A program made the position numbers and the translations under genes. A DNA stretch of 64,000 bases from Limnohabitans sp. Lineage in GTDB: Bacteria > Pseudomonadota > Gammaproteobacteria > Burkholderiales > Burkholderiaceae_C. Each line of letters begins with the position of its first letter. Position 1 is the first letter of the stretch. The stretch is taken from NCBI GenBank assembly GCA_030158125.1, contig JAOATL010000004.1:248001-312000 (forward strand), written 5' to 3'. Below the pieces are notes generated by a model, which saw nothing but the letters and a program-made list of their open reading frames with translations, did not search any database and was not told where the DNA came from. Positions 6,746 to 17,323 of this stretch are shown in pieces.

Positions 6746-8407
6746 ATGACATCTCAACGCCTCAAGAACTCTGGGTCTCAAACCAACACTTGGCACCCCG
6801 CCTGGGTCGCAGTCCTGGGCAGCTTATGGCTTGCCAGCGTGGGCAACTATGCACTTTGGCAACAAATCCACCAACTGCCAGAAGTATCTGGCTTGCGTGG
6901 GCTGGCCTTTGCGCTGGGATTTGGCGCCATCATCGCGGCCACCATCACCACGCTGTTGGGCTTCCTGAATTGGCGAGGCGGCCTCAAACCGGTGCTGTCT
7001 GTTTTCTTTTTGAGTGCCGCCAGCGGTGCCTACTTCATGGTGAGCTACGGCATCGTCATTGACAGCACCATGATCACCAACGTGCTTCAAACGGACACCA
7101 AAGAAGCACTGGACTTGCTCAACTGGCGCATGCTCATCAGCCTCATGCTCCTGGGCGTGCTGCCTTGCTGGGTGCTTTGGATCACGCCCCTCAAAACGCT
7201 GCGCTTTGGCCAACAGGCGATCAGCAACATCATCACGGTAGTGGCCTCTTTAGCCTTGATTGTGGCTGCGTTGTTGGCTGTCTTTCAAGACTTCTCATCC
7301 ATCATGCGCAATCACACGCAGTTGCGGTATTTGGTCAACCCCTTAAACAGTTTTTATGCCATCGGCGTGGTCGCCGCCAAGCCTTTCCAACGCGACAATA
7401 AAATCTTGTTACCGGTGGGCCAAGACGCCAAGGCGGCAGCCCTCAAGCCTTCAGACAAGCCCCCGTTGTTGCTATTGGTTTTGGGTGAAACAGCTCGCAT
7501 GGGCAACTTTGGCATCAACGGCTATGAGCGCAACACCACACCAGAATTGGCCAAAGAAAATATCATCAGCCTAAAAGGCGTGATGTCTTGTGGCACCAGT
7601 ACGGCCACTTCGGTGCCCTGCATGTTCTCTCACATGGGCAAAGAGACATTTGAAGCGCGAAAGAACAACTTCGAAAGCTTGATCGATGTTTTGCAACATG
7701 CGGGCTTGGCGGTCTTGTGGATCGACAACCAATCGGGTTGCAAAGGCGTTTGCGAACGCGTGCCGCAGGCACTGACCAAAGAACTCAAGCACCCTACGCT
7801 TTGCAAAGATGGCGAGTGTTTTGACGAAATCATGTTGCAGCAACTGGACGATCGCATCAAAGCCTTGCCGGCAGAAAGGCGCGCTAAGGGCGTGGTTGTG
7901 GTGATGCACCAAATGGGCAGTCATGGCCCAGCCTATTACAAGCGCGTCCCCGATTCGTTTAAAAAGTTTCAACCTGAGTGCAAAAGTAATGCGCTGCAAG
8001 ATTGTTCACGCGATCAAGTGGTCAACTCTTTTGACAACACCATTCTCTACACCGATCATTTCTTAGGGCAAGCCATTCAATGGCTCAAGAAAACCGAAGC
8101 AACGGCCGCACCAGCACTGCTGTATGTCTCCGACCATGGCGAATCACTGGGTGAAAACAATCTGTATTTGCACGGCTTGCCGTATCGGGTTGCGCCCGAT
8201 GTCCAAAAACGTGTGCCATGGATTACTTGGTGGTCATCTCGTTTTGAGCAACAAAGAGGTTTGTCCCGCGGGTGCTTGAAGAACAAAGTCAACGCAGCCC
8301 TGACGCACGACAGCTACTTCCATTCCGTCTTGGGTCTGATGGGTGTCAGCACTGAGGTGTATCAGGCCAAACTGGATGTGCATGCGGACTGCCGCAGTGC
8401 CTCATAG
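6746..8407 (+). CDS. eptA: Phosphoethanolamine transferase, EptA family
   Basis: Inner-membrane enzyme that moves phosphoethanolamine from phosphatidylethanolamine to lipid A or a related glycan on the periplasmic side. The 553-residue protein has about five N-terminal membrane helices (about 20-215) and a periplasmic sulfatase-like domain. Visible catalytic features are GETAR at 247-251, the nucleophile-containing SCGTSTATSVPCMFS around 281-295, and the metal-binding SDHGESLG near the end. Several cysteines (CKGVCE, CKDGECF, CKSNALQDC) fit the family's disulphides. Modification of lipid A by this family lowers binding of cationic peptides in other species; that role is inferred here. Its stop overlaps the convergent DUF1854 gene by 6 bp. 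Confidence 0.88.
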   Translation: MTSQRLKNSGSQTNTWHPAWVAVLGSLWLASVGNYALWQQIHQLPEVSGLRGLAFALGFGAIIAATITTLLGFLNWRGGLKPVLSVFFLSAASGAYFMVSYGIVIDSTMITNVLQTDTKEALDLLNWRMLISLMLLGVLPCWVLWITPLKTLRFGQQAISNIITVVASLALIVAALLAVFQDFSSIMRNHTQLRYLVNPLNSFYAIGVVAAKPFQRDNKILLPVGQDAKAAALKPSDKPPLLLLVLGETARMGNFGINGYERNTTPELAKENIISLKGVMSCGTSTATSVPCMFSHMGKETFEARKNNFESLIDVLQHAGLAVLWIDNQSGCKGVCERVPQALTKELKHPTLCKDGECFDEIMLQQLDDRIKALPAERRAKGVVVVMHQMGSHGPAYYKRVPDSFKKFQPECKSNALQDCSRDQVVNSFDNTILYTDHFLGQAIQWLKKTEATAAPALLYVSDHGESLGENNLYLHGLPYRVAPDVQKRVPWITWWSSRFEQQRGLSRGCLKNKVNAALTHDSYFHSVLGLMGVSTEVYQAKLDVHADCRSAS

Positions 8408-8878: not shown

Positions 8879-11205
8879 GATGTCACCGTCTCCCGCAAAA
8901 CAGCGCCTTCCGATTCGGCTTGTCGTTGCTGTGCCTCATACAAACGCCAGTATGCCCCTTTGCGATCGATCAACACGTCATGCGTGCCCTCTTCCACAAT
9001 GAGGCCCTTGTCCATGACCACCAATCGATCAGCCTTGCGCAAAGTGGACAGACGGTGAGCAATGGCAATGGTGGTGCGTCCACGAACCAAATTGTCCAAT
9101 GCGTTTTGAATTTCTTTTTCGGTTTCGGTGTCGACTGCGGAGGTGGCCTCATCCAAAATCAAAATGCGGGGATTGATCAACAGTGCGCGGGCGATCGAAA
9201 TGCGCTGACGCTCGCCACCCGACAATCCTTGACCCCGCTCTCCCACCAACGAATCGTAGCCCTGCGGCATGCGCAAAATAAATTCGTGTGCGTGCGCAGC
9301 ACGGGCCGCCGCCACAATCTCCTCACGCGAGGCATCGGGCAGGCCATAAGCGATGTTGTCAGCAATGGTGCCAAAGAACAAGAACGGCTCTTGCAGCACC
9401 AAGCCAATGTGTCTGCGGTAATCGGCCACTTTGAGCTGCTTGATGTCGACACCATCTAGCGCAATGCTGCCCTCTGACAAATCGTAGAAGCGGCACATCA
9501 AGTTGACCAAGGTACTTTTACCCGAGCCACTGTGCCCTACCAAACCAATCATTTCGCCCGGTTTGATGTCGAGGTTCAATTGTTTGATCACTGCACGGTT
9601 GCCATAGCGGAAGCTTGCATCTGTCAGGGTGATGCGGCCCTCTACTTTTGGCAAAGCCACTGGATTGACTGGCTCAGGCACGCTGGACACGTGGTCCAAA
9701 ATTTCAAAAATTCGCTTGGCGCCCGATGCCGCTTTTTGAGTGGAGGACACAATGCGGCTCATGGAATCGAGGCGCGTGTAAAAGCGCCCGATGTAAGCCA
9801 AGAATGCCGTGAGCACACCCACCGTAATTTGATCTTTAGACACCAGCCAAATGCCAAAGCCCCACACCACCAATAAACCAATTTCGGTCATCAAGGTGAC
9901 GGTGGGCGAGAACACTGACCAGACGCGGTTCAAGCGGTCATTCACCGCCAAATTGTGTTTGTTGGCATCGATGAAACGCTGCGCCTCTCGGTCCTCTTGC
10001 GCAAATGCTTTGACCACGCGAATACCCGGAATGGTATCTGCCAACACATTGGTAACTTCTGACCAAACTCTGTCGATTTTTTCAAATCCAGTGCGCAATT
10101 TTTCGCGCACCACGTGAATCAACCAACCAATGAACGGCAGGGGCAACAAAGTGACCAAGGCCAAGGTCGGGTTGATTGAAAACAGGATGATCGAGGTCAT
10201 CAGGATCATCAAAATATCGGTGGCGAAATCAAGCAAATGCAGTGACAAGAAAACATTGATTCGGTCGGTTTCACTGCCAATGCGTGCGATCAAATCTCCG
10301 GTTCGGCGACCGCCAAAATACTCGAGTGAAAGCTTCAACAAGTGTTGGTAGGTGGTGGTGCGCAAATCAGCGCCAATGCGCTCGGAGACCAACGCCAAAA
10401 TGTAAGTCTTGATCCACCCAAGGCCCCAGGCCACCAAAGCAGACGCCAGCAAGCCCAACAGATACCAGGAGACAGTGACCGGATCGATGGGTTTGCCGTT
10501 CTGATAGGGAATCAGGACATCGTCCATCAAGGGCATGGTGAGATAAGGGGGCACCAAAGTGGCAGCCGTTGAAGCCAGGGTCAGGACAAAACCCAGCAAC
10601 AACTGCCATTGGTAAGGTTTGGCAAATCGCCAAAGTTTGAACAGGGTCCAACTTGACGTTGGCGTCTGCTCTTTTTCCAGACACACAGGACACTCCTCGT
10701 CAGCCGCGTCCACCACGTTCTGACATACGGGACAAAGTACATGCCGCATGACACCCACACCGGGCTCAAATAACTCTCCATCGACTTGACTCTGGTGGGA
10801 CTGCACGCCCAAACTGGCGCTTTGAGAGGCTTGAATTTGCTGATTTTCAAAACGCAATTTCCACCGCAAAACAGCCGCCTCAAGCCCCAACGTAAATCGC
10901 CAAACCGCAACGCGACGGCCGGCTTGATGCATGGCGAGGGTGCCGACACCTGCGTGATCCAACACACGCAGACTTAAATCGGGGCCGAGAGCGCAGAAAT
11001 TCCAACTTTTTTGGACATGGTCTGTGGAGATGACCCTTTGATCGGTCAAAATAACAAGGTTTTTTTCGAACCTTAATTCATCATTCAGGTCAACCTCTAG
11101 CCAGGCTAGGACGTTTTCACCTAGGTGAACTTGAGACAACACGCCCTCCTGCCAGAACAAAGGCAATCCCAGCAAGTCAGTGGGAGGATGGGATTTGGAG
11201 TTCAT
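8875..11205 (-). CDS. ABC transporter (fused TM-NBD) with N-terminal PH-like segment and zinc-ribbon cysteines
   Basis: The 776 residues fall into four parts. Residues 1-130 resemble a bacterial PH-like domain (NLVILTDQRVIS). A CPVC...CPVC zinc-ribbon motif has cysteines at 158, 161, 172 and 175. An exporter-type six-helix membrane domain spans about 195-480, and a nucleotide-binding domain runs from about 520. The latter has Walker A GHSGSGKST (557-565), signature LSGGE (661-665), Walker B ILILDEATS (681) and the switch His717, so it should hydrolyse ATP. As a half-transporter it would act as a homodimer in the inner membrane. The cargo is unknown; its coupling to DUF1854 and divergent position to two cphA genes point to cyanophycin metabolism. 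Confidence 0.85.
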   Translation of the reverse strand: MNSKSHPPTDLLGLPLFWQEGVLSQVHLGENVLAWLEVDLNDELRFEKNLVILTDQRVISTDHVQKSWNFCALGPDLSLRVLDHAGVGTLAMHQAGRRVAVWRFTLGLEAAVLRWKLRFENQQIQASQSASLGVQSHQSQVDGELFEPGVGVMRHVLCPVCQNVVDAADEECPVCLEKEQTPTSSWTLFKLWRFAKPYQWQLLLGFVLTLASTAATLVPPYLTMPLMDDVLIPYQNGKPIDPVTVSWYLLGLLASALVAWGLGWIKTYILALVSERIGADLRTTTYQHLLKLSLEYFGGRRTGDLIARIGSETDRINVFLSLHLLDFATDILMILMTSIILFSINPTLALVTLLPLPFIGWLIHVVREKLRTGFEKIDRVWSEVTNVLADTIPGIRVVKAFAQEDREAQRFIDANKHNLAVNDRLNRVWSVFSPTVTLMTEIGLLVVWGFGIWLVSKDQITVGVLTAFLAYIGRFYTRLDSMSRIVSSTQKAASGAKRIFEILDHVSSVPEPVNPVALPKVEGRITLTDASFRYGNRAVIKQLNLDIKPGEMIGLVGHSGSGKSTLVNLMCRFYDLSEGSIALDGVDIKQLKVADYRRHIGLVLQEPFLFFGTIADNIAYGLPDASREEIVAAARAAHAHEFILRMPQGYDSLVGERGQGLSGGERQRISIARALLINPRILILDEATSAVDTETEKEIQNALDNLVRGRTTIAIAHRLSTLRKADRLVVMDKGLIVEEGTHDVLIDRKGAYWRLYEAQQRQAESEGAVLRETVTS

Positions 11206-11385: not shown

Positions 11386-13569
11386 ATGGAAATGAGTTCT
11401 AAAGACATCAAATTTTTGCGCATGACCCATCTTAAGGGTCCCAACATCTGGACGTATCGCCCTGTGATGGAAGCATGGATCGACATTGGCGACCTTGAAG
11501 ACTGTCCGTCTGACACCCTGCCCGGCTTCAACGAGCGGCTGCAAGCCCTGTTGCCTGGCCTCATTGAGCATCGGTGCAGTGTGGGTGAACGAGGTGGTTT
11601 TTTGAAGCGATTGGCCGAAGGCACCTGGCCCGGTCACATCATGGAACACGTGGCCCTAGAACTGCAAAACCGCGCAGGCATGCAAACCGGTTTTGGCAAG
11701 GCCCGCGAGGCAGGTCCTCGAGGCATTTACAAAGTGGTCATCCGAACGCGCAATGAAACCGTCAGCCGCGCAGCCCTGCAGGCTGCCCGGGACTTGGTCA
11801 TGGCAGCCATCGAAAACCGTCCCTACCCCGTTAAGCAAGTCATCGCCGATCTCACCCAAATGGTAGACCGTTTGTGCATTGGCCCCAGCACTGCATGCAT
11901 TGTCGATGCCGCCGCAGAGCGCAGCATCCCCGCTATTCGCTTAAACGATGGCAACTTGGTGCAATTGGGCTATGGCGCCAGCCAACGCCGCATCTGGACC
12001 GCCGAGACCGACCAAACCAGCGCCATCGCTGAAGGCGTGTCAAAGGACAAAGACCTCACCAAGAGCCTGCTGGCCAATTGCGGCGTGCCCGTGCCGGAAG
12101 GTCGCAACGTGTCCTCACCGGCTGAAGCTTGGGATGCCGCCCAAGACATCGGCCTGCCTGTCTGCGTCAAACCTGTCGACGGCAACCATGCCCGTGGTGT
12201 TTCCCTAGAACTGCGCACACAAGCTGAAGTCGAAGCGGCTTACCATTTGGCCGAAGCCGAAGGCAGCGATGTTTTGGTTGAACGCCACATTTTGGGTGAT
12301 GAACACCGTCTCTTGGTGGTGGGCGGCAAAGTGGTCGCAGCCAACAAAGGTGAAGTGGCCAGCGTGGTGGGTGATGGCGTCCACACGGTTGCGCAGCTGA
12401 TCGAAATTCAAATCAACTCTGACCCGCGTCGGGGTGAGGAAGAAGACTTTCCGCTTGACACCATCCGACTCAAAGATCACACCACAGCCGTGCTTGAACT
12501 CAAGCGCCAAGGCTTAACGGGCGACAGCGTGCCAGAACAAGGCCGCAGCGTCATGGTCATGCGCACTGGCAACATGGCCATGGATGTCACAGACCTGGTT
12601 CACCCCGATGTGGCCGAATTGGCCGCCTTGGCCGCCCGCATTGTGGGACTGGACATTGCAGGCGTTGACCTCGTTGCTCAAGACATTTCAAAGCCCATGA
12701 AAGCACAAGGCGCCGCCATTGTGGAAGTCAATGCAGGTCCAGGTTTGCTGATGCACTTGAAGCCTGCCACGGGATCGGCTCGGCCTGTAGGTCAAGCCAT
12801 TGCGGCGCATTTGTTTGCTGAAAACTCCGAGCCCCGCATCCCGGTCGTTGGCATCATTGGCAACGACAACACCACAGGGACCAGCCTGCTCGTTGCTTGG
12901 CTTTTGCATTTGCAAGGTTTACAAACAGGCCTGGCTTCTGCCAAAGGCTTGTTTTTGGGACAACGTTGCCTGCAAAACCAAAGCGGCATGGAATGGGATT
13001 CTGCACAGCGCTTGCTCATCAACCGTTCTGTTCAGGCCGCCGTGTTTGAAACCACCGCACGACACCTCTTGGCCGAAGGTCTCCCGTACGATCGCTGCCA
13101 AGTCGGGGTCATCACCTCCATGCCCAAGGCCGATGGACTTCAAGACCTCTACATTCAAAGCGACGAGCAGATGCCCAATGTCATCCGCACTCAAATGGAT
13201 GTGGTCCTGCCCCAAGGCATGGCCGTCCTGAATGCCGAAGATCCCGAAGTGGCCAACTTGGCGCAATACTGCGACGGCGAAGTCACCTACTTTGCCAGCT
13301 CAGAAGAACACCCCCTCATCGCCAAGCATCGCAGCGAAAACGGTCGCGTTGTGTTTTGGCGAAAAAATCATTTGGTGTTGGCCCAAGGTGATCAAGAAAT
13401 TGATGCCCTCAACCGCCAATTGCCAGCCATTGACAAATTGTTCAAAAACCAACACCTCAAGTGCGTTGAAGTTTTGGCTGCTGCAGCCACCGCTTGGGCA
13501 TTGGGCATCAGCACTGACTTGATTCGCGCAGGCATCAAGAGTTTTGGTCAAAGCCCAGGTGCGCACTGA
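11386..13569 (+). CDS. CphA-like cyanophycin synthetase homologue with degenerate, truncated Mur-ligase half
   Basis: The 727-residue protein shares the CphA layout: N domain (KGPNIWTYRP near residue 20), ATP-grasp domain (about 210-460, with KDKDLTKSLL and the metal-binding VEVNAGPG), then a Mur-ligase-like part. In true CphA the Mur P-loop reads GTNGKTTT; here positions 492-499 read GNDNTTGT, without the lysine. The protein also ends before the Mur C-terminal domain, so the Arg-adding half should be inactive while the Asp-adding ATP-grasp half looks intact. A second CphA-like protein next to CphA is known from other betaproteobacteria. ATGs at 11386 and 11392 are both possible starts. The true cphA follows after 60 bp. 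Confidence 0.85.
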   Translation: MEMSSKDIKFLRMTHLKGPNIWTYRPVMEAWIDIGDLEDCPSDTLPGFNERLQALLPGLIEHRCSVGERGGFLKRLAEGTWPGHIMEHVALELQNRAGMQTGFGKAREAGPRGIYKVVIRTRNETVSRAALQAARDLVMAAIENRPYPVKQVIADLTQMVDRLCIGPSTACIVDAAAERSIPAIRLNDGNLVQLGYGASQRRIWTAETDQTSAIAEGVSKDKDLTKSLLANCGVPVPEGRNVSSPAEAWDAAQDIGLPVCVKPVDGNHARGVSLELRTQAEVEAAYHLAEAEGSDVLVERHILGDEHRLLVVGGKVVAANKGEVASVVGDGVHTVAQLIEIQINSDPRRGEEEDFPLDTIRLKDHTTAVLELKRQGLTGDSVPEQGRSVMVMRTGNMAMDVTDLVHPDVAELAALAARIVGLDIAGVDLVAQDISKPMKAQGAAIVEVNAGPGLLMHLKPATGSARPVGQAIAAHLFAENSEPRIPVVGIIGNDNTTGTSLLVAWLLHLQGLQTGLASAKGLFLGQRCLQNQSGMEWDSAQRLLINRSVQAAVFETTARHLLAEGLPYDRCQVGVITSMPKADGLQDLYIQSDEQMPNVIRTQMDVVLPQGMAVLNAEDPEVANLAQYCDGEVTYFASSEEHPLIAKHRSENGRVVFWRKNHLVLAQGDQEIDALNRQLPAIDKLFKNQHLKCVEVLAAAATAWALGISTDLIRAGIKSFGQSPGAH

Positions 13570-13629
13570 TACTGCAGCACCCGCCCTCACAATTACCAGA
13601 CGACGCGCGTCAAACAGGATATCTGCTTC

Positions 13630-16215
13630 ATGGAAGTTTCAAGAATTAGAGCTTTGCGGGGACCCAATTTATGGAGTCGACAAACCAGCATTGAAGCCAT
13701 CGTCAGTTGCATACCGTCAGAGCGAGATATGTTGCCTGGCAATGAATTTGAAAAACAGTTGCGTCGAATTTTTCCGGCGGTAGGTCCGCTTGAAGGTTCA
13801 AGGCCTGGTCAGCCCGCCAGCATGGCGCACGCACTCGAAAAAATCACCCTCAGTTTGCAAACGCAAGCGGGGTGCCCGGTGACGTTCAGTCGCACCACCG
13901 CCACCGAAGAAGAAGGCATCTTCCAAGTCGTGGTTCAGTACACCGAAGAAGCTGTCGGCCGTTTGGCACTCGAATGGGCGGAGAAACTTTGCCAAGCTGT
14001 GCAATCGCAATCTGCATTTGATTTAAACCAAGCCCTCGCAGAATTGCGCGAATTGGACGAAGACGTCCGTTTAGGTCCATCCACTGGTGCCATCGTCGAT
14101 GCAGCTGTCATCAAGGGCATTCCATACCGTCGCCTCACAGAAGGCAGCATGGTGCAATTTGGATGGGGCTCTAAACAGCGCCGCATTCAAGCGGCCGAGA
14201 CTGACACAACCAGTGCCATTGCCGAATCCATAGCCCAAGACAAAGACCTGACCAAATCTTTGTTGTTGGCCGCCGGTGTCCCTGTTCCCCTTGGCCGCCC
14301 CGCCAAAGATTTGGAAGATGCCTGGACCATTGCACAAAGCATTGGCTTGCCGGTGGTGGTCAAACCTCAAGACGGCAACCAAGGAAAAGGTGTCACCGTC
14401 AACATCACCGAACGTGACTTGTTCAATCAGGCATATGAAACGGCCGCCCGCTACGGCGAAGTCTTGGTTGAAAAATTCTTGCCGGGCAGCGACTACCGCC
14501 TGCTGGTGGTTGGCAACAAACTGGTCGCTGCCGCTCGTCGCGAACCGCCTTTGGTTGTAGGCGATGGCGTCCTCACTGTCCGTGAATTGGTTGACAAGGT
14601 CAACGCAGACCCTCGCCGTGGCGATGGCCACTCCACCTCATTGACCAAAATTAGATTTGATGACATCGCCATAGGCCGCTTGAAGTTGCAAGACCTCGAA
14701 CCCAATTCCGTGCCTGAGAAAGGCCGCAGGGTCATCCTTCGCAACAATGCCAACTTGTCGACCGGCGGTACCGCCACCGATGTCACTGACGATGTCCATG
14801 CAGAAGTTGCGGCGCGTGCCGTGGCGGCCGCTCAAATGGTGGGGGTAGACATCTGCGGCGTCGACGTGGTCTGTGAATCTGTCCTGAAACCACTCGAAGA
14901 ACAAAACGGTGGGGTTGTGGAAGTCAATGCCGCCCCTGGTTTGCGCATGCACATCAGCCCATCATTTGGCAAAGGCCGAAACGTCGGCAAAGCTGTCATA
15001 GATCACATGTTTCCCAATGGGGACAATGGTCGCATTCCCGTCATTGCAGTGACTGGCACCAACGGGAAAACAACCACGGTGCGTCTCACAGCACACCTGC
15101 TCAAAGCCAACCAACTTCGCGTCGGCATGACCAACACCGATGGCGTGTATGTCAACGGACGCCAAATTGACGATGGCGATTGCAGCGGTCCTCGCAGCGC
15201 GCGCAATGTGTTGATGCACCCAGACGTCGATGCGGCAGTCTTTGAGACGGCACGGGGCGGCTTGCTTCGCGAAGGTTTGGCTTTTGACCGTTGCCAAGTG
15301 GCCATTGTCACCAACATGGGCTCTGGCGACCACTTGGGTTTGAATTACATCACCACCTTGGAAGACTTGTCGGTCCTCAAACGTGTGATTGTGCTGAATG
15401 TGGCCCCAGATGGCATGGCCGTCCTGAATGCCGCCGATCCACAAGTGGCCATGATGGCCAACATGTGCCCTGGCGACGTTACTTTCTTTGCACTCGACCC
15501 ACACCACCCCGTATTGGCCACACATCGCGCGCAAGGCAAACGTGTGGTCTACACCCAGAACGGCGACATCGTTGCGCAACAAGGCAAGAAGTCTTTCCGA
15601 ATTTCATTGAGTGAAGTACCTCTCACTCGCCAAGGACAAATTGGCTTTCAAACCGAAAACGTCATGGCAGCCGTGGCTGCGGCTTGGGCAGTCAGTGTGC
15701 CCTGGGACACCATTGCCCAAGGCTTGTCCACCTTCATCAGTGACATTCAGGGCGTGCCTGGTCGCTTCAATGTGTTCGACTACAAAGGTGCCACCCTCAT
15801 TGCAGACTATGGGCACAACCCCGATGCCATTCAAGCCTTGGTACAAGCGGTTGACAACATGCCCGCACAAAAACGGGTGGTGGTCATCAGCGGCGCGGGT
15901 GATCGACGTGATCAAGACATTCGCGATCAAACCCAAATTTTGGGTACTGCCTTTGACGAAGTGCTTTTGTACCAAGATGCATGCCAACGCGGCCGCAGTG
16001 ATGGCGAGGTCATTCAACTTTTGCGCGAAGGCCTGAACGGCGCACCTCGAACCACGCACGTGCAAGACATCCAAGGCGAGTTCAATGCCATTGACACCGC
16101 TTTGTCACGCCTGTCTTCTGGTGACCTGTGCCTGATTTTGATTGATCAGGTTGAGGCTGCACTGGCCTACATTCAGGGCAAGGTAGACGACAGCAAACTC
16201 AGCTTGTCTAAGTAA
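13630..16215 (+). CDS. cphA: Cyanophycin synthetase CphA
   Basis: Makes cyanophycin, a poly-aspartate backbone with arginine side chains, from Asp, Arg and ATP without a ribosome; the polymer is stored in cytoplasmic granules. At 861 residues it has the normal length. The N domain begins MEVSRIRALRGPNLW, the ATP-grasp domain (about 200-450) includes QDKDLTKSLLLAAGVPVP and VEVNAAPG, and the Mur-ligase domain has an intact P-loop GTNGKTTT at 476-483 and the downstream YGHNPDAIQAL motif. It lies 60 bp after the degenerate homologue, so both are probably made together. No cyanophycinase or isoaspartyl dipeptidase gene is in the window. The stop overlaps the convergent acyltransferase gene by 8 bp. 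Confidence 0.95.
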   Translation: MEVSRIRALRGPNLWSRQTSIEAIVSCIPSERDMLPGNEFEKQLRRIFPAVGPLEGSRPGQPASMAHALEKITLSLQTQAGCPVTFSRTTATEEEGIFQVVVQYTEEAVGRLALEWAEKLCQAVQSQSAFDLNQALAELRELDEDVRLGPSTGAIVDAAVIKGIPYRRLTEGSMVQFGWGSKQRRIQAAETDTTSAIAESIAQDKDLTKSLLLAAGVPVPLGRPAKDLEDAWTIAQSIGLPVVVKPQDGNQGKGVTVNITERDLFNQAYETAARYGEVLVEKFLPGSDYRLLVVGNKLVAAARREPPLVVGDGVLTVRELVDKVNADPRRGDGHSTSLTKIRFDDIAIGRLKLQDLEPNSVPEKGRRVILRNNANLSTGGTATDVTDDVHAEVAARAVAAAQMVGVDICGVDVVCESVLKPLEEQNGGVVEVNAAPGLRMHISPSFGKGRNVGKAVIDHMFPNGDNGRIPVIAVTGTNGKTTTVRLTAHLLKANQLRVGMTNTDGVYVNGRQIDDGDCSGPRSARNVLMHPDVDAAVFETARGGLLREGLAFDRCQVAIVTNMGSGDHLGLNYITTLEDLSVLKRVIVLNVAPDGMAVLNAADPQVAMMANMCPGDVTFFALDPHHPVLATHRAQGKRVVYTQNGDIVAQQGKKSFRISLSEVPLTRQGQIGFQTENVMAAVAAAWAVSVPWDTIAQGLSTFISDIQGVPGRFNVFDYKGATLIADYGHNPDAIQALVQAVDNMPAQKRVVVISGAGDRRDQDIRDQTQILGTAFDEVLLYQDACQRGRSDGEVIQLLREGLNGAPRTTHVQDIQGEFNAIDTALSRLSSGDLCLILIDQVEAALAYIQGKVDDSKLSLSK

Positions 16216-17323
16216 GCCATATGACAGCAGTGCAGCTTGCCCCAAAGGCAGCTGCCCACTGCAACAGGCGCCGCCAGTTGGGCGGCTGTTTTTCCACCTG
16301 TGCATGCAAGCATCGCCCCGCAGCGATTGAGGTCACAAAGGATGCCAGCATGCCAAGTGCGTTGGCCACCACGTGGGTCGGCCACAGGTTTGTCACCACG
16401 GCACTGAACAACAAACTCACGCCAAAATGAATCAGAAAAATGGCGTACGAGGCATCCGACAGTTGCCGAACCCATTTGTTTTTGAGAATCTCAATTGACC
16501 GGCCTTCTCGAAACTCATAGAGGGCCAACAACACTGCGGTCAACATCGCTACGAGCAACCTCATTCGAGGTTGCTCAAGCCACGCAGCACAATTCACAAG
16601 TGCTATCAGCACGGCCAGATGCAAATGACTCAGTGGGAATCCAGCTTGCCGCCAAATACCGACACACAAACCCAGACCGTAAGCGCCAAAAAAATAGACC
16701 GCCCACATGTCCAATGAGGCTTGAAGGTTCCAAACAAAGAGCGATGCCATCGCAAGGCCAACCCAAAGCACCACGGCCTTTTGGGCAACACGACCCTGCC
16801 CCGACCAACGCTGCCATCGCCTCGCCACGACAGCCGCACCAAGCCCCAAAGCGAACAGCTGAAAATCGATTGCAACATACCAAACGCCAGCAGAAAAAGC
16901 TTCAAGCTGCAAAATATCTTGCAACAACAAAATGTGCGCCACCACCTGCAGGGGCTCAGGCGCTGCTGACAAAGATGGATGGTCAAAAAAAGGCCTCACC
17001 ACCGCGGTGGCAATCACTGCAAAAGACAGCGCGGCCAGCAGTGGGATGGCCAGGCGTTGATAGCGTGAGCTCAAGCGATGGAGGAATCGAAAATCAGCAT
17101 CGGCCAAAGCACGCGACCAAGATTTGGCACTCAGGTACCCCCCCAAGACCAAGAAAACCTGCACTGCCAGAGGGCCGTGATCGAACAGAAATCGAATCAG
17201 CACTGGCACTTGCAAAGCGACAACATCTGACATTGGCCCGTACAAAGCGAGGTGATGCCAGACGATCGTCACACAGGCGCAAGCCTTGAGAAAGTCAACG
17301 ACCTCCGAGCGCTCAGATTTCAC
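16208..17323 (-). CDS. Acyltransferase family 3 membrane protein
   Basis: A 371-residue integral membrane protein with about ten hydrophobic helices. The N-terminal VVDFLKACACVTIVWHHLA contains the His-bearing first segment typical of acyltransferase family 3 (OafA/NodX type), which moves acyl groups onto cell-surface sugars or other carbohydrates. The family's second-segment Arg and the FLVLGGYLSAKS motif are also visible. The acceptor is unknown, and no glycan biosynthesis genes lie nearby. It is 18 bp upstream of the nitronate monooxygenase stop region on the same strand and convergent with cphA, so it may be transcribed independently. Confidence 0.8.
   Translation of the reverse strand: MKSERSEVVDFLKACACVTIVWHHLALYGPMSDVVALQVPVLIRFLFDHGPLAVQVFLVLGGYLSAKSWSRALADADFRFLHRLSSRYQRLAIPLLAALSFAVIATAVVRPFFDHPSLSAAPEPLQVVAHILLLQDILQLEAFSAGVWYVAIDFQLFALGLGAAVVARRWQRWSGQGRVAQKAVVLWVGLAMASLFVWNLQASLDMWAVYFFGAYGLGLCVGIWRQAGFPLSHLHLAVLIALVNCAAWLEQPRMRLLVAMLTAVLLALYEFREGRSIEILKNKWVRQLSDASYAIFLIHFGVSLLFSAVVTNLWPTHVVANALGMLASFVTSIAAGRCLHAQVEKQPPNWRRLLQWAAAFGASCTAVIWLT

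Follow-up and report, generated by a model that had tools for sequence, protein, structure and literature searches.

The window, i.e. the whole analysed stretch of 64,000 nucleotides from Limnohabitans sp. (contig JAOATL010000004.1), carries two neighbouring genes, both on the + strand, for homologues of the cyanophycin synthetase CphA. Their products, here called P1 and P2, were probably formed by a duplication after which the functions of a self-sufficient CphA1 were shared out between a protein that cuts the polymer and makes primers (P1) and a primer-dependent elongase (P2). In the ancestral CphA1, the N domain would have cut the polymer to make primers, the G domain would have ligated Asp and the M domain Arg, and these jobs would then have been divided between the two copies. 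This reading draws on the reciprocal loss and retention of sites, the pattern of conservation, a phylogenetic tree and the gene neighbourhood, all of them taken from sequences. The features concerned are collected in Table 1.

Table 1. Features of the P1/P2 locus (positions in the window).
Feature	Position	Strand	Remarks
NF052234 "cyanophycin metabolism-associated DUF1854 family protein", 158 aa	8402..8878	-	NCBI family name
NF052233 "cyanophycin metabolism-associated ABC transporter", 776 aa	8875..11205	-	divergent from P1
P1 (CphA' type), 727 aa	11386..13569	+	hydrolase motif in the N domain; acceptor pocket of the ATP-grasp G domain altered; Mur core present, but neither P-loop nor lid
P1 N-domain metallopeptidase-like motif Cx19HxxEH (C64, H84, E87, H88)	11575..11649	+	site defined in PMC9262961
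P1 G322, at the position of CphA1 R323 (Asp beta-carboxylate ligand)	12349..12351	+	role: PMC9427784
P1 shortened G-omega loop RTGNMA, replacing ANLSTGGIA; S396 position deleted	12562..12579	+	alignment
P1 L455, at the position of CphA1 R458 (Asp alpha-carboxylate ligand)	12748..12750	+	role: PMC9427784
P1 degenerate Mur P-loop GNDNTTGT (residues 492-499)	12859..12882	+	sequence read
P1 R601 to D605, SuCphA1 M-core positions 603 and 607	13186..13200	+	R and D in 60/60 P1s
P2 (CphA1 type), 861 aa	13630..16215	+	complete G and M domains; N-domain hydrolase motif lost
P2 intact Mur P-loop GTNGKTTT (residues 476-483)	15055..15078	+	sequence read

The length of P1 depends on its start, which was taken over from a preliminary description of the locus; the mechanically called open reading frame begins at 11125. 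As that description had stated, the Mur P-loop of P1 is degenerate and its C-terminal Mur domain is absent, and P2 has an intact P-loop. Pfam models Mur_ligase_M and Mur_ligase_C both matched P2, which also has the lid, and neither matched P1. The accompanying claim that P1 has lost its Mur-ligase half was overstated, however: the P-loop and the lid are gone, but the Mur core is still there, P1 being alignable with CphA1 chains (879-910 residues) as far as residue 723-724. Judging from this alignment, the missing part of P1 is the lid (the C-terminal Mur domain), and a dead-looking Mur core without a P-loop remains. The AlphaFold model of P1 (mean pLDDT 84.6) matched the CphA1 structures 7lgj and 7txv with TM-scores of 0.88 and 0.89, respectively (by query length). 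With the NCBIfam models, P1 scored 708 bits for TIGR02068 (cut-off 850) and 995 bits for NF010623 (cut-off 877), and the family score of P2 was 969 bits, above the 850 cut-off. The catalytic residues K499, D585, H586, R323, S396 and R458 are present in P2, and the position of H267 is occupied by Q. An acyltransferase-like ORF (16208-17323, - strand; weak match to MdoC) overlaps the end of P2 with its own end by 8 bases.

Two explanations of the P1 P-loop, raised in the preliminary description, were rejected. No lysine is displaced by a small insertion: VGIIGNDNTTGTSL is ungapped against CphA1, and the sole gap near this stretch in the CphA1 alignment (2 columns) was opened by one other P1 (L168). 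Nor is a sequencing error involved, because the pair recurs in the family and order of the window's organism; relatives read DGDTT, GGEETT and DGQSA at the same place. Equally degenerate homologues, whose existence had also been considered, proved numerous (GK[TS] is absent in 52 of the 60 P1s), and none reported to be active was found among them.

For the comparison of sites, 158 sequences were aligned with SuCphA1 as the ruler, and residues whose roles are given in PMC9427784 and PMC9262961 were counted. The 60 P1s comprise that of the window and 59 from fetched loci. Set aside were four of the 34 single CphAs, i.e. L082 (no N motif), L123 (motif intact, Q267), L138 and L140 (motif lost in both), and two of the 63 P2-type rows, i.e. 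L139 (motif lost) and L174 (motif intact); L138, L139 and L140 come from genomes that also carry a P1/P2 pair. The 61 P2 rows include a duplicate (L073, the same as the P2 of L173) and two pieces of the broken L176 P2, and counts over 60 P2s leave out the duplicate as well. The lone homologue L082 (genome G719) has, besides the missing N motif, an odd G loop (KPKASGKGKG), and it may be another enzyme.

In CphA1, the Cx19HxxEH endo-cyanophycinase site of the N domain, which was described in 2022, makes primers, and the full motif occurs in 83% of nr70 CphA1s (PMC9262961). In our alignment it is present in 60/60 P1s and 30/30 of the kept single CphA1s, and in 0/61 P2 rows. A plain text search over more loci found it in 95 of 95 distinct P1 records and in 1 of 112 P2-type records (L174), some of the records being partial copies of the same gene. 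The metal site and its neighbours (H57, C59, F67, R70, H79, E82, H83, E87 and Y110) are present in every one of the 60 P1s. Among the residues that contact the polymer in SuCphA1, R70 and Y110 are kept in P1, positions 603 and 607 are invariant but read R and D instead of S and E, and positions 60 and 90 vary (G in 34/60 and N in 43/60, respectively). Four P1s with eroded G sites (L168, L171, L172 and L173) still carry the N motif. One of these, the 673-residue P1 of L173 (genome G582), has a G domain that is eroded or partly gone beside an intact motif, and is in effect a natural G knock-out. By keeping the HxxEH site, P1 would act in trans as the cutting, primer-making partner. As read from the alignment, this N-domain site, invariant in P1 and absent from P2, together with the lost Asp pocket of P1, had been overlooked in the preliminary description.

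That description had instead credited P1 with keeping an Asp-adding ATP-grasp domain. This holds for the ATP residues K220, K261, R309 and E450, which are kept in 57/60 P1s, but not for the Asp pocket. R323, S396 and R458, ligands or close neighbours of the incoming Asp in CphA1 (PMC9427784), are all absent in 60/60 P1s and all present in 58/60 P2s and 30/30 singles, so P1 cannot be said simply to keep an Asp-adding domain. The P1 acceptor pocket has a new, near-fixed consensus instead (R323G in 56/60, R458L in 56/60, A393G in 55/60 and the shortened omega loop), and N394 is aligned to N in 51/60, though within that shortened loop. H267, whose exchange in H267A gave the SuCphA1 mutant used for its inactive G domain (PMC9262961), is found in 53/60 P1s and 4/61 P2 rows, with Q in 56 of these 61 rows. 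The Mur P-loop GK[TS] is present in 8/60 P1s versus 60/61 P2s, and the Mur lid in 3/60 versus 59/61. The 60 P1s share the same residue at just 8 of 234 M positions. Among these are 603 and 607, which contact polymer lying in the N active site of SuCphA1 (PMC9262961), and 8 randomly placed invariant positions would hit both with a chance of ~0.001. The weight of this observation is limited, because the letters differ from those of SuCphA1, 52/60 P2 rows also have R at 603, and other contacts vary.

Translated into functions, P1 would have lost Arg ligation with its P-loop and lid and canonical Asp ligation with its Asp pocket, and the Mur core may have persisted chiefly because it forms a wall of the N site, at which the polymer would be hydrolysed. 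Binding of ATP and of the chain end has probably been retained in the G domain of P1, the acceptor being altered or unassigned. P2, presumably active on the same chain, would keep both Asp and Arg ligation and, without primers of its own, would depend on P1, whose cut chain ends most likely serve as primers for the non-cutting P2.

The domains of the two proteins also differ in conservation. Over the 59 loci with both genes, mean identity between loci was 0.637 in P1 and 0.535 in P2 for the N domain, 0.638 and 0.692 for the G domain, and 0.439 and 0.686 for the Mur core. P1 exceeded P2 in 1421 of 1711 locus pairs in the N domain and in 0 of 1711 in the Mur core. The dN/dS ratio, taken from 25 rows (the closest of 129 listed pairs, with some genes repeated), was below 1 throughout. 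It reached at most 0.395 in any P1 domain and 0.298 in P2, save for the broken L176 copy, which gave values of up to 0.591 in two rows. In P1 it was lower for N than for M in 24/25 rows, and in P2 it was higher for N than for G in 19 of the 22 rows with both values, two of which involve the broken L176 copy.

In a tree built with a mixture model from the N and G domains (40 rows), P1 and P2 were each monophyletic (100/100) and combined with L174 into a single clade (99/99); the union of P1 and P2 had an SH-aLRT value of only 86 in a quick tree of 93 rows. The earliest P1 branches of that quick tree (L157, L151, L169 and L170) keep GKT, yet R323G and the short loop are already there, which suggests that P1 lost the Asp pocket before the Mur site; the mixture-model tree leaves the order of these P1s open. 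The L174 protein (genome G1021, C9:3500-11782) is a CphA with the N motif, R323, the NLSTGG loop and the Mur P-loop all intact. ABC and DUF1854 genes lie nearby, and the contig ends inside the CphA gene. A second CphA was not found in G1021, a genome that is 93% complete and 8% contaminated, so that L174 is a candidate for the undivided ancestral state but could also reflect an assembly gap. Among 150 relatives of G1021, five matched: besides G1021, these were two genomes already known to hold the pair and two with a single CphA, and no second such case was seen.

The pair is a conserved system and not a local accident. With P1 as the query (E 1e-80), 125 of 200 genomes sampled from the same family matched, 121 of them with two or more matches, as did 113 of 300 genomes from the order, 101 with two or more (the two samples share a few genomes). 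Of the 12 order genomes with a single match, G229 and G370 hold both genes, cut by contig ends, G480 has P2 at a contig start, and the other nine have one CphA1-type gene each, in one case in pieces. In the class sample, 15 of 369 genomes beyond the order matched (18 including three of the window's family), with pairs in G703, G803 and G582 and a single match in 12; in the phylum sample, 29 of 398 matched, and the 9 outside the order had one match each. Nineteen plasmid records matched P1 at 32 to 40% identity and are annotated plainly as cphA or cyanophycin synthetase. In G195, G473, G046 and G482, the single cphA gene has in its vicinity a separate gene that resembles a Mur ligase (32 to 38% against the P2 M domain).

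The ABC transporter and DUF1854 genes accompany the pair at 56 of the 60 fetched loci (they were not found in L154, L164, L169 and L186), and the ABC gene is upstream and divergent at 55 of the 60. In the window, the DUF1854 gene adjoins a gene for a phosphoethanolamine-lipid A transferase (6746-8407, + strand; NF028537, EptA-like). Gene contents were tallied in 59 hand-picked, related genomes (44 with the pair and 15 with a single CphA) of >200 found. The DUF1854 gene was present in 44/44 pair genomes versus 0/15 single-CphA genomes, cyanophycinase (TIGR02069) in 10/44 versus 15/15 (Fisher p 8e-8, uncorrected for kinship), and PF01112 isoaspartyl peptidases in 10/44 and 6/15. In three of these ten pair genomes, the cyanophycinase gene adjoins extra cphA copies. 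The window genome is also one of the ten: its TIGR02069 protein is encoded on another contig, C1 (L347:5983-6960, + strand), beside an ORF of 255 aa, and its RR-containing hydrophobic N-terminal leader suggests export. Loci L350, L351 and L352 (genomes G254, G462 and G490, which also hold a P1/P2 pair) each present a second CphA pair, in divergent gene orientation, beside a cyanophycinase, neither member having a full N motif. According to PMC5178258, Betaproteobacteria had not yielded a cyanophycinase; genomes with both the pair and the enzyme would be exceptions to this statement, if they are betaproteobacterial.

These neighbourhoods invite the view that P1 is mainly a depolymerase or oligomer maker, which cuts the polymer of P2 for mobilisation or ABC export and so replaces cyanophycinase. 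The uneven distribution of cyanophycinase, its association with extra cphA copies, the location and leader of the window genome's enzyme, and the attachment of the ABC and DUF1854 genes to the pair all speak for this, but the N site of SuCphA1 is slow, acting over hours to days (PMC9262961), and the linked transporter is a putative exporter with an unassigned substrate. An unrecognised cyanophycinase could moreover exist, and the genomes compared were hand-picked and related, the window genome and nine others of the 44 having the enzyme; we regard this as a rather unlikely main role of P1. Alternatively, the ATP-grasp domain of P1 may be active with another nucleophile and cap or extend the chain end, giving a variant polymer such as the preliminary description had suggested, with the N site being secondary. 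The retained ATP-binding and chain-end residues beside the near-fixed new pocket would fit such an enzyme, yet H267 is lost in 7/60 P1s (L173 with its eroded G domain among them) and the N motif in none, and this reading seems unlikely. In a wider, speculative reading, which we consider possible but doubtful, CphA', CphA, ABC and DUF1854 would form a distinct cyanophycin system, usually without cyanophycinase: P2 would build the chain, P1 would cut it at the N site and might cap the pieces through a re-specified ATP-grasp, and the short oligomers would be recycled, used as primers or exported by the ABC transporter, and not stored as granules. If true, this would explain the missing cyanophycinase in most of the examined pair genomes and why no cyanophycin was observed in Ralstonia eutropha.

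The preliminary description had proposed a regulatory or mixed-oligomer subunit, which pointed in the right direction as regards a partner or mixed-complex role. CphA1 is a tetramer whose Mur core touches other chains (PMC9427784), and the P1 and P2 genes are adjacent, but a purely regulatory P1 fits poorly because the metal site of its N domain is invariant (H57, C59, H79, E82, H83 and E87 in 60/60), so a non-catalytic structural or regulatory subunit appears quite improbable. A CphA2-like polymerase of beta-Asp-Arg dipeptides is very improbable and was rejected on the basis of three aligned proteins from cyanobacterial genomes (L321, L323 and L324, three of five CphA2-like loci, L320 and L322 being empty rows). 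CphA2 shares with P1 the absence of the Mur P-loop and lid, and betaproteobacterial pairs have been labelled CphA1/CphA2 (PMC5178258); however, the aligned proteins have only these losses in common with P1. They retain both R323 and the NLSSGG loop but have no N motif, the reverse of P1, and in the quick tree they sit apart on a long branch of their own. Finally, fast decay of the Mur core and one internal stop in each of two P1 matches among those listed might hint at a decaying pseudogene or an assembly error, but the frame is open in the window, the gene recurs in many genera and the dN/dS values are low in all P1 domains; together with the alignment of relatives, this led us to dismiss such an origin almost entirely.

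The split of a self-sufficient CphA1 into a primer maker and an elongase, which we favour, has difficulties of its own. The Q of P2 at H267, the residue whose alanine mutant is the inactive SuCphA1 G domain, counts against it, and the loss of the N motif in P2 need not be compensated, because TmCphA1 and L082 lack the motif without a known partner. Primer making alone does not explain P1, because conservation is as high in its G domain as in its N domain. This conserved G domain with its changed acceptor pocket, Q267 of P2 and the ABC transporter, whatever it carries, would also allow for capping, for depolymerisation by P1 or for the export of oligomers. Even so, in a pair that many genera have kept, evolution seems to have parted the primer site from the sites of synthesis. 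This provides a natural test of how the N domain primes and a means of turning priming on and off. The pair may also explain polymer handling in organisms without a recognised cyanophycinase.

Pairs of cphA and cphA' genes in betaproteobacteria, e.g. in R. eutropha H16, resemble P1/P2 in comprising two homologues. We take the cphA/cphA' genes of R. eutropha H16 to be very likely the same system. Partial loss of the J-loop in CphA' was reportedly noted by Adames et al. in 2013. CphA-like partners in other betaproteobacteria, which the preliminary description had mentioned, have already been published: Sideroxydans was described as having two neighbouring synthetases, to which the labels CphA1 and CphA2 were given (PMC5178258), and no cyanophycin was observed in R. 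eutropha H16 with its two homologues (PMC11362209). The latter means that P2 may not make ordinary cyanophycin, and the pair may account for this observation. In the openly readable text that the literature search covered, we found no report of the reciprocal loss seen here, of the loss of R323 and R458, or of a link to the presence of DUF1854 or the absence of cyanophycinase; DUF1854 as the sole query returned no paper.

With CphA1 (SuCphA1, TeCphA1; TIGR02068, NF010623), the pair shares homology over the whole length and the domain order N-G-M, and the CphA1 sites are found again as Cx19HxxEH in P1 and as the G and M sites in P2. The difference is that one CphA1 protein can carry three sites, which are here split over two proteins, P1 being also without the Asp pocket. 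CphA2 (Gloeothece 7ta5, Stanieria 8fxh) is like P1 in its missing Mur P-loop and lid, and unlike it in having no N motif (PMC9262961) and keeping the Asp-pocket loop and R323 in the three aligned proteins. The primer-dependent TmCphA1 (Tatumella, 7lgn) is closest to P2, with full G and M domains and no N motif (PMC9262961), but it keeps H267, where most P2s have Q, and no CphA' partner is mentioned for it in the available text of that paper. SuCphA1 with dead G and M domains, or its isolated N domain, makes TmCphA1 primer-independent in trans (PMC9262961), and this published trans-priming is what the P1/P2 pair would look like if evolution had fixed it.
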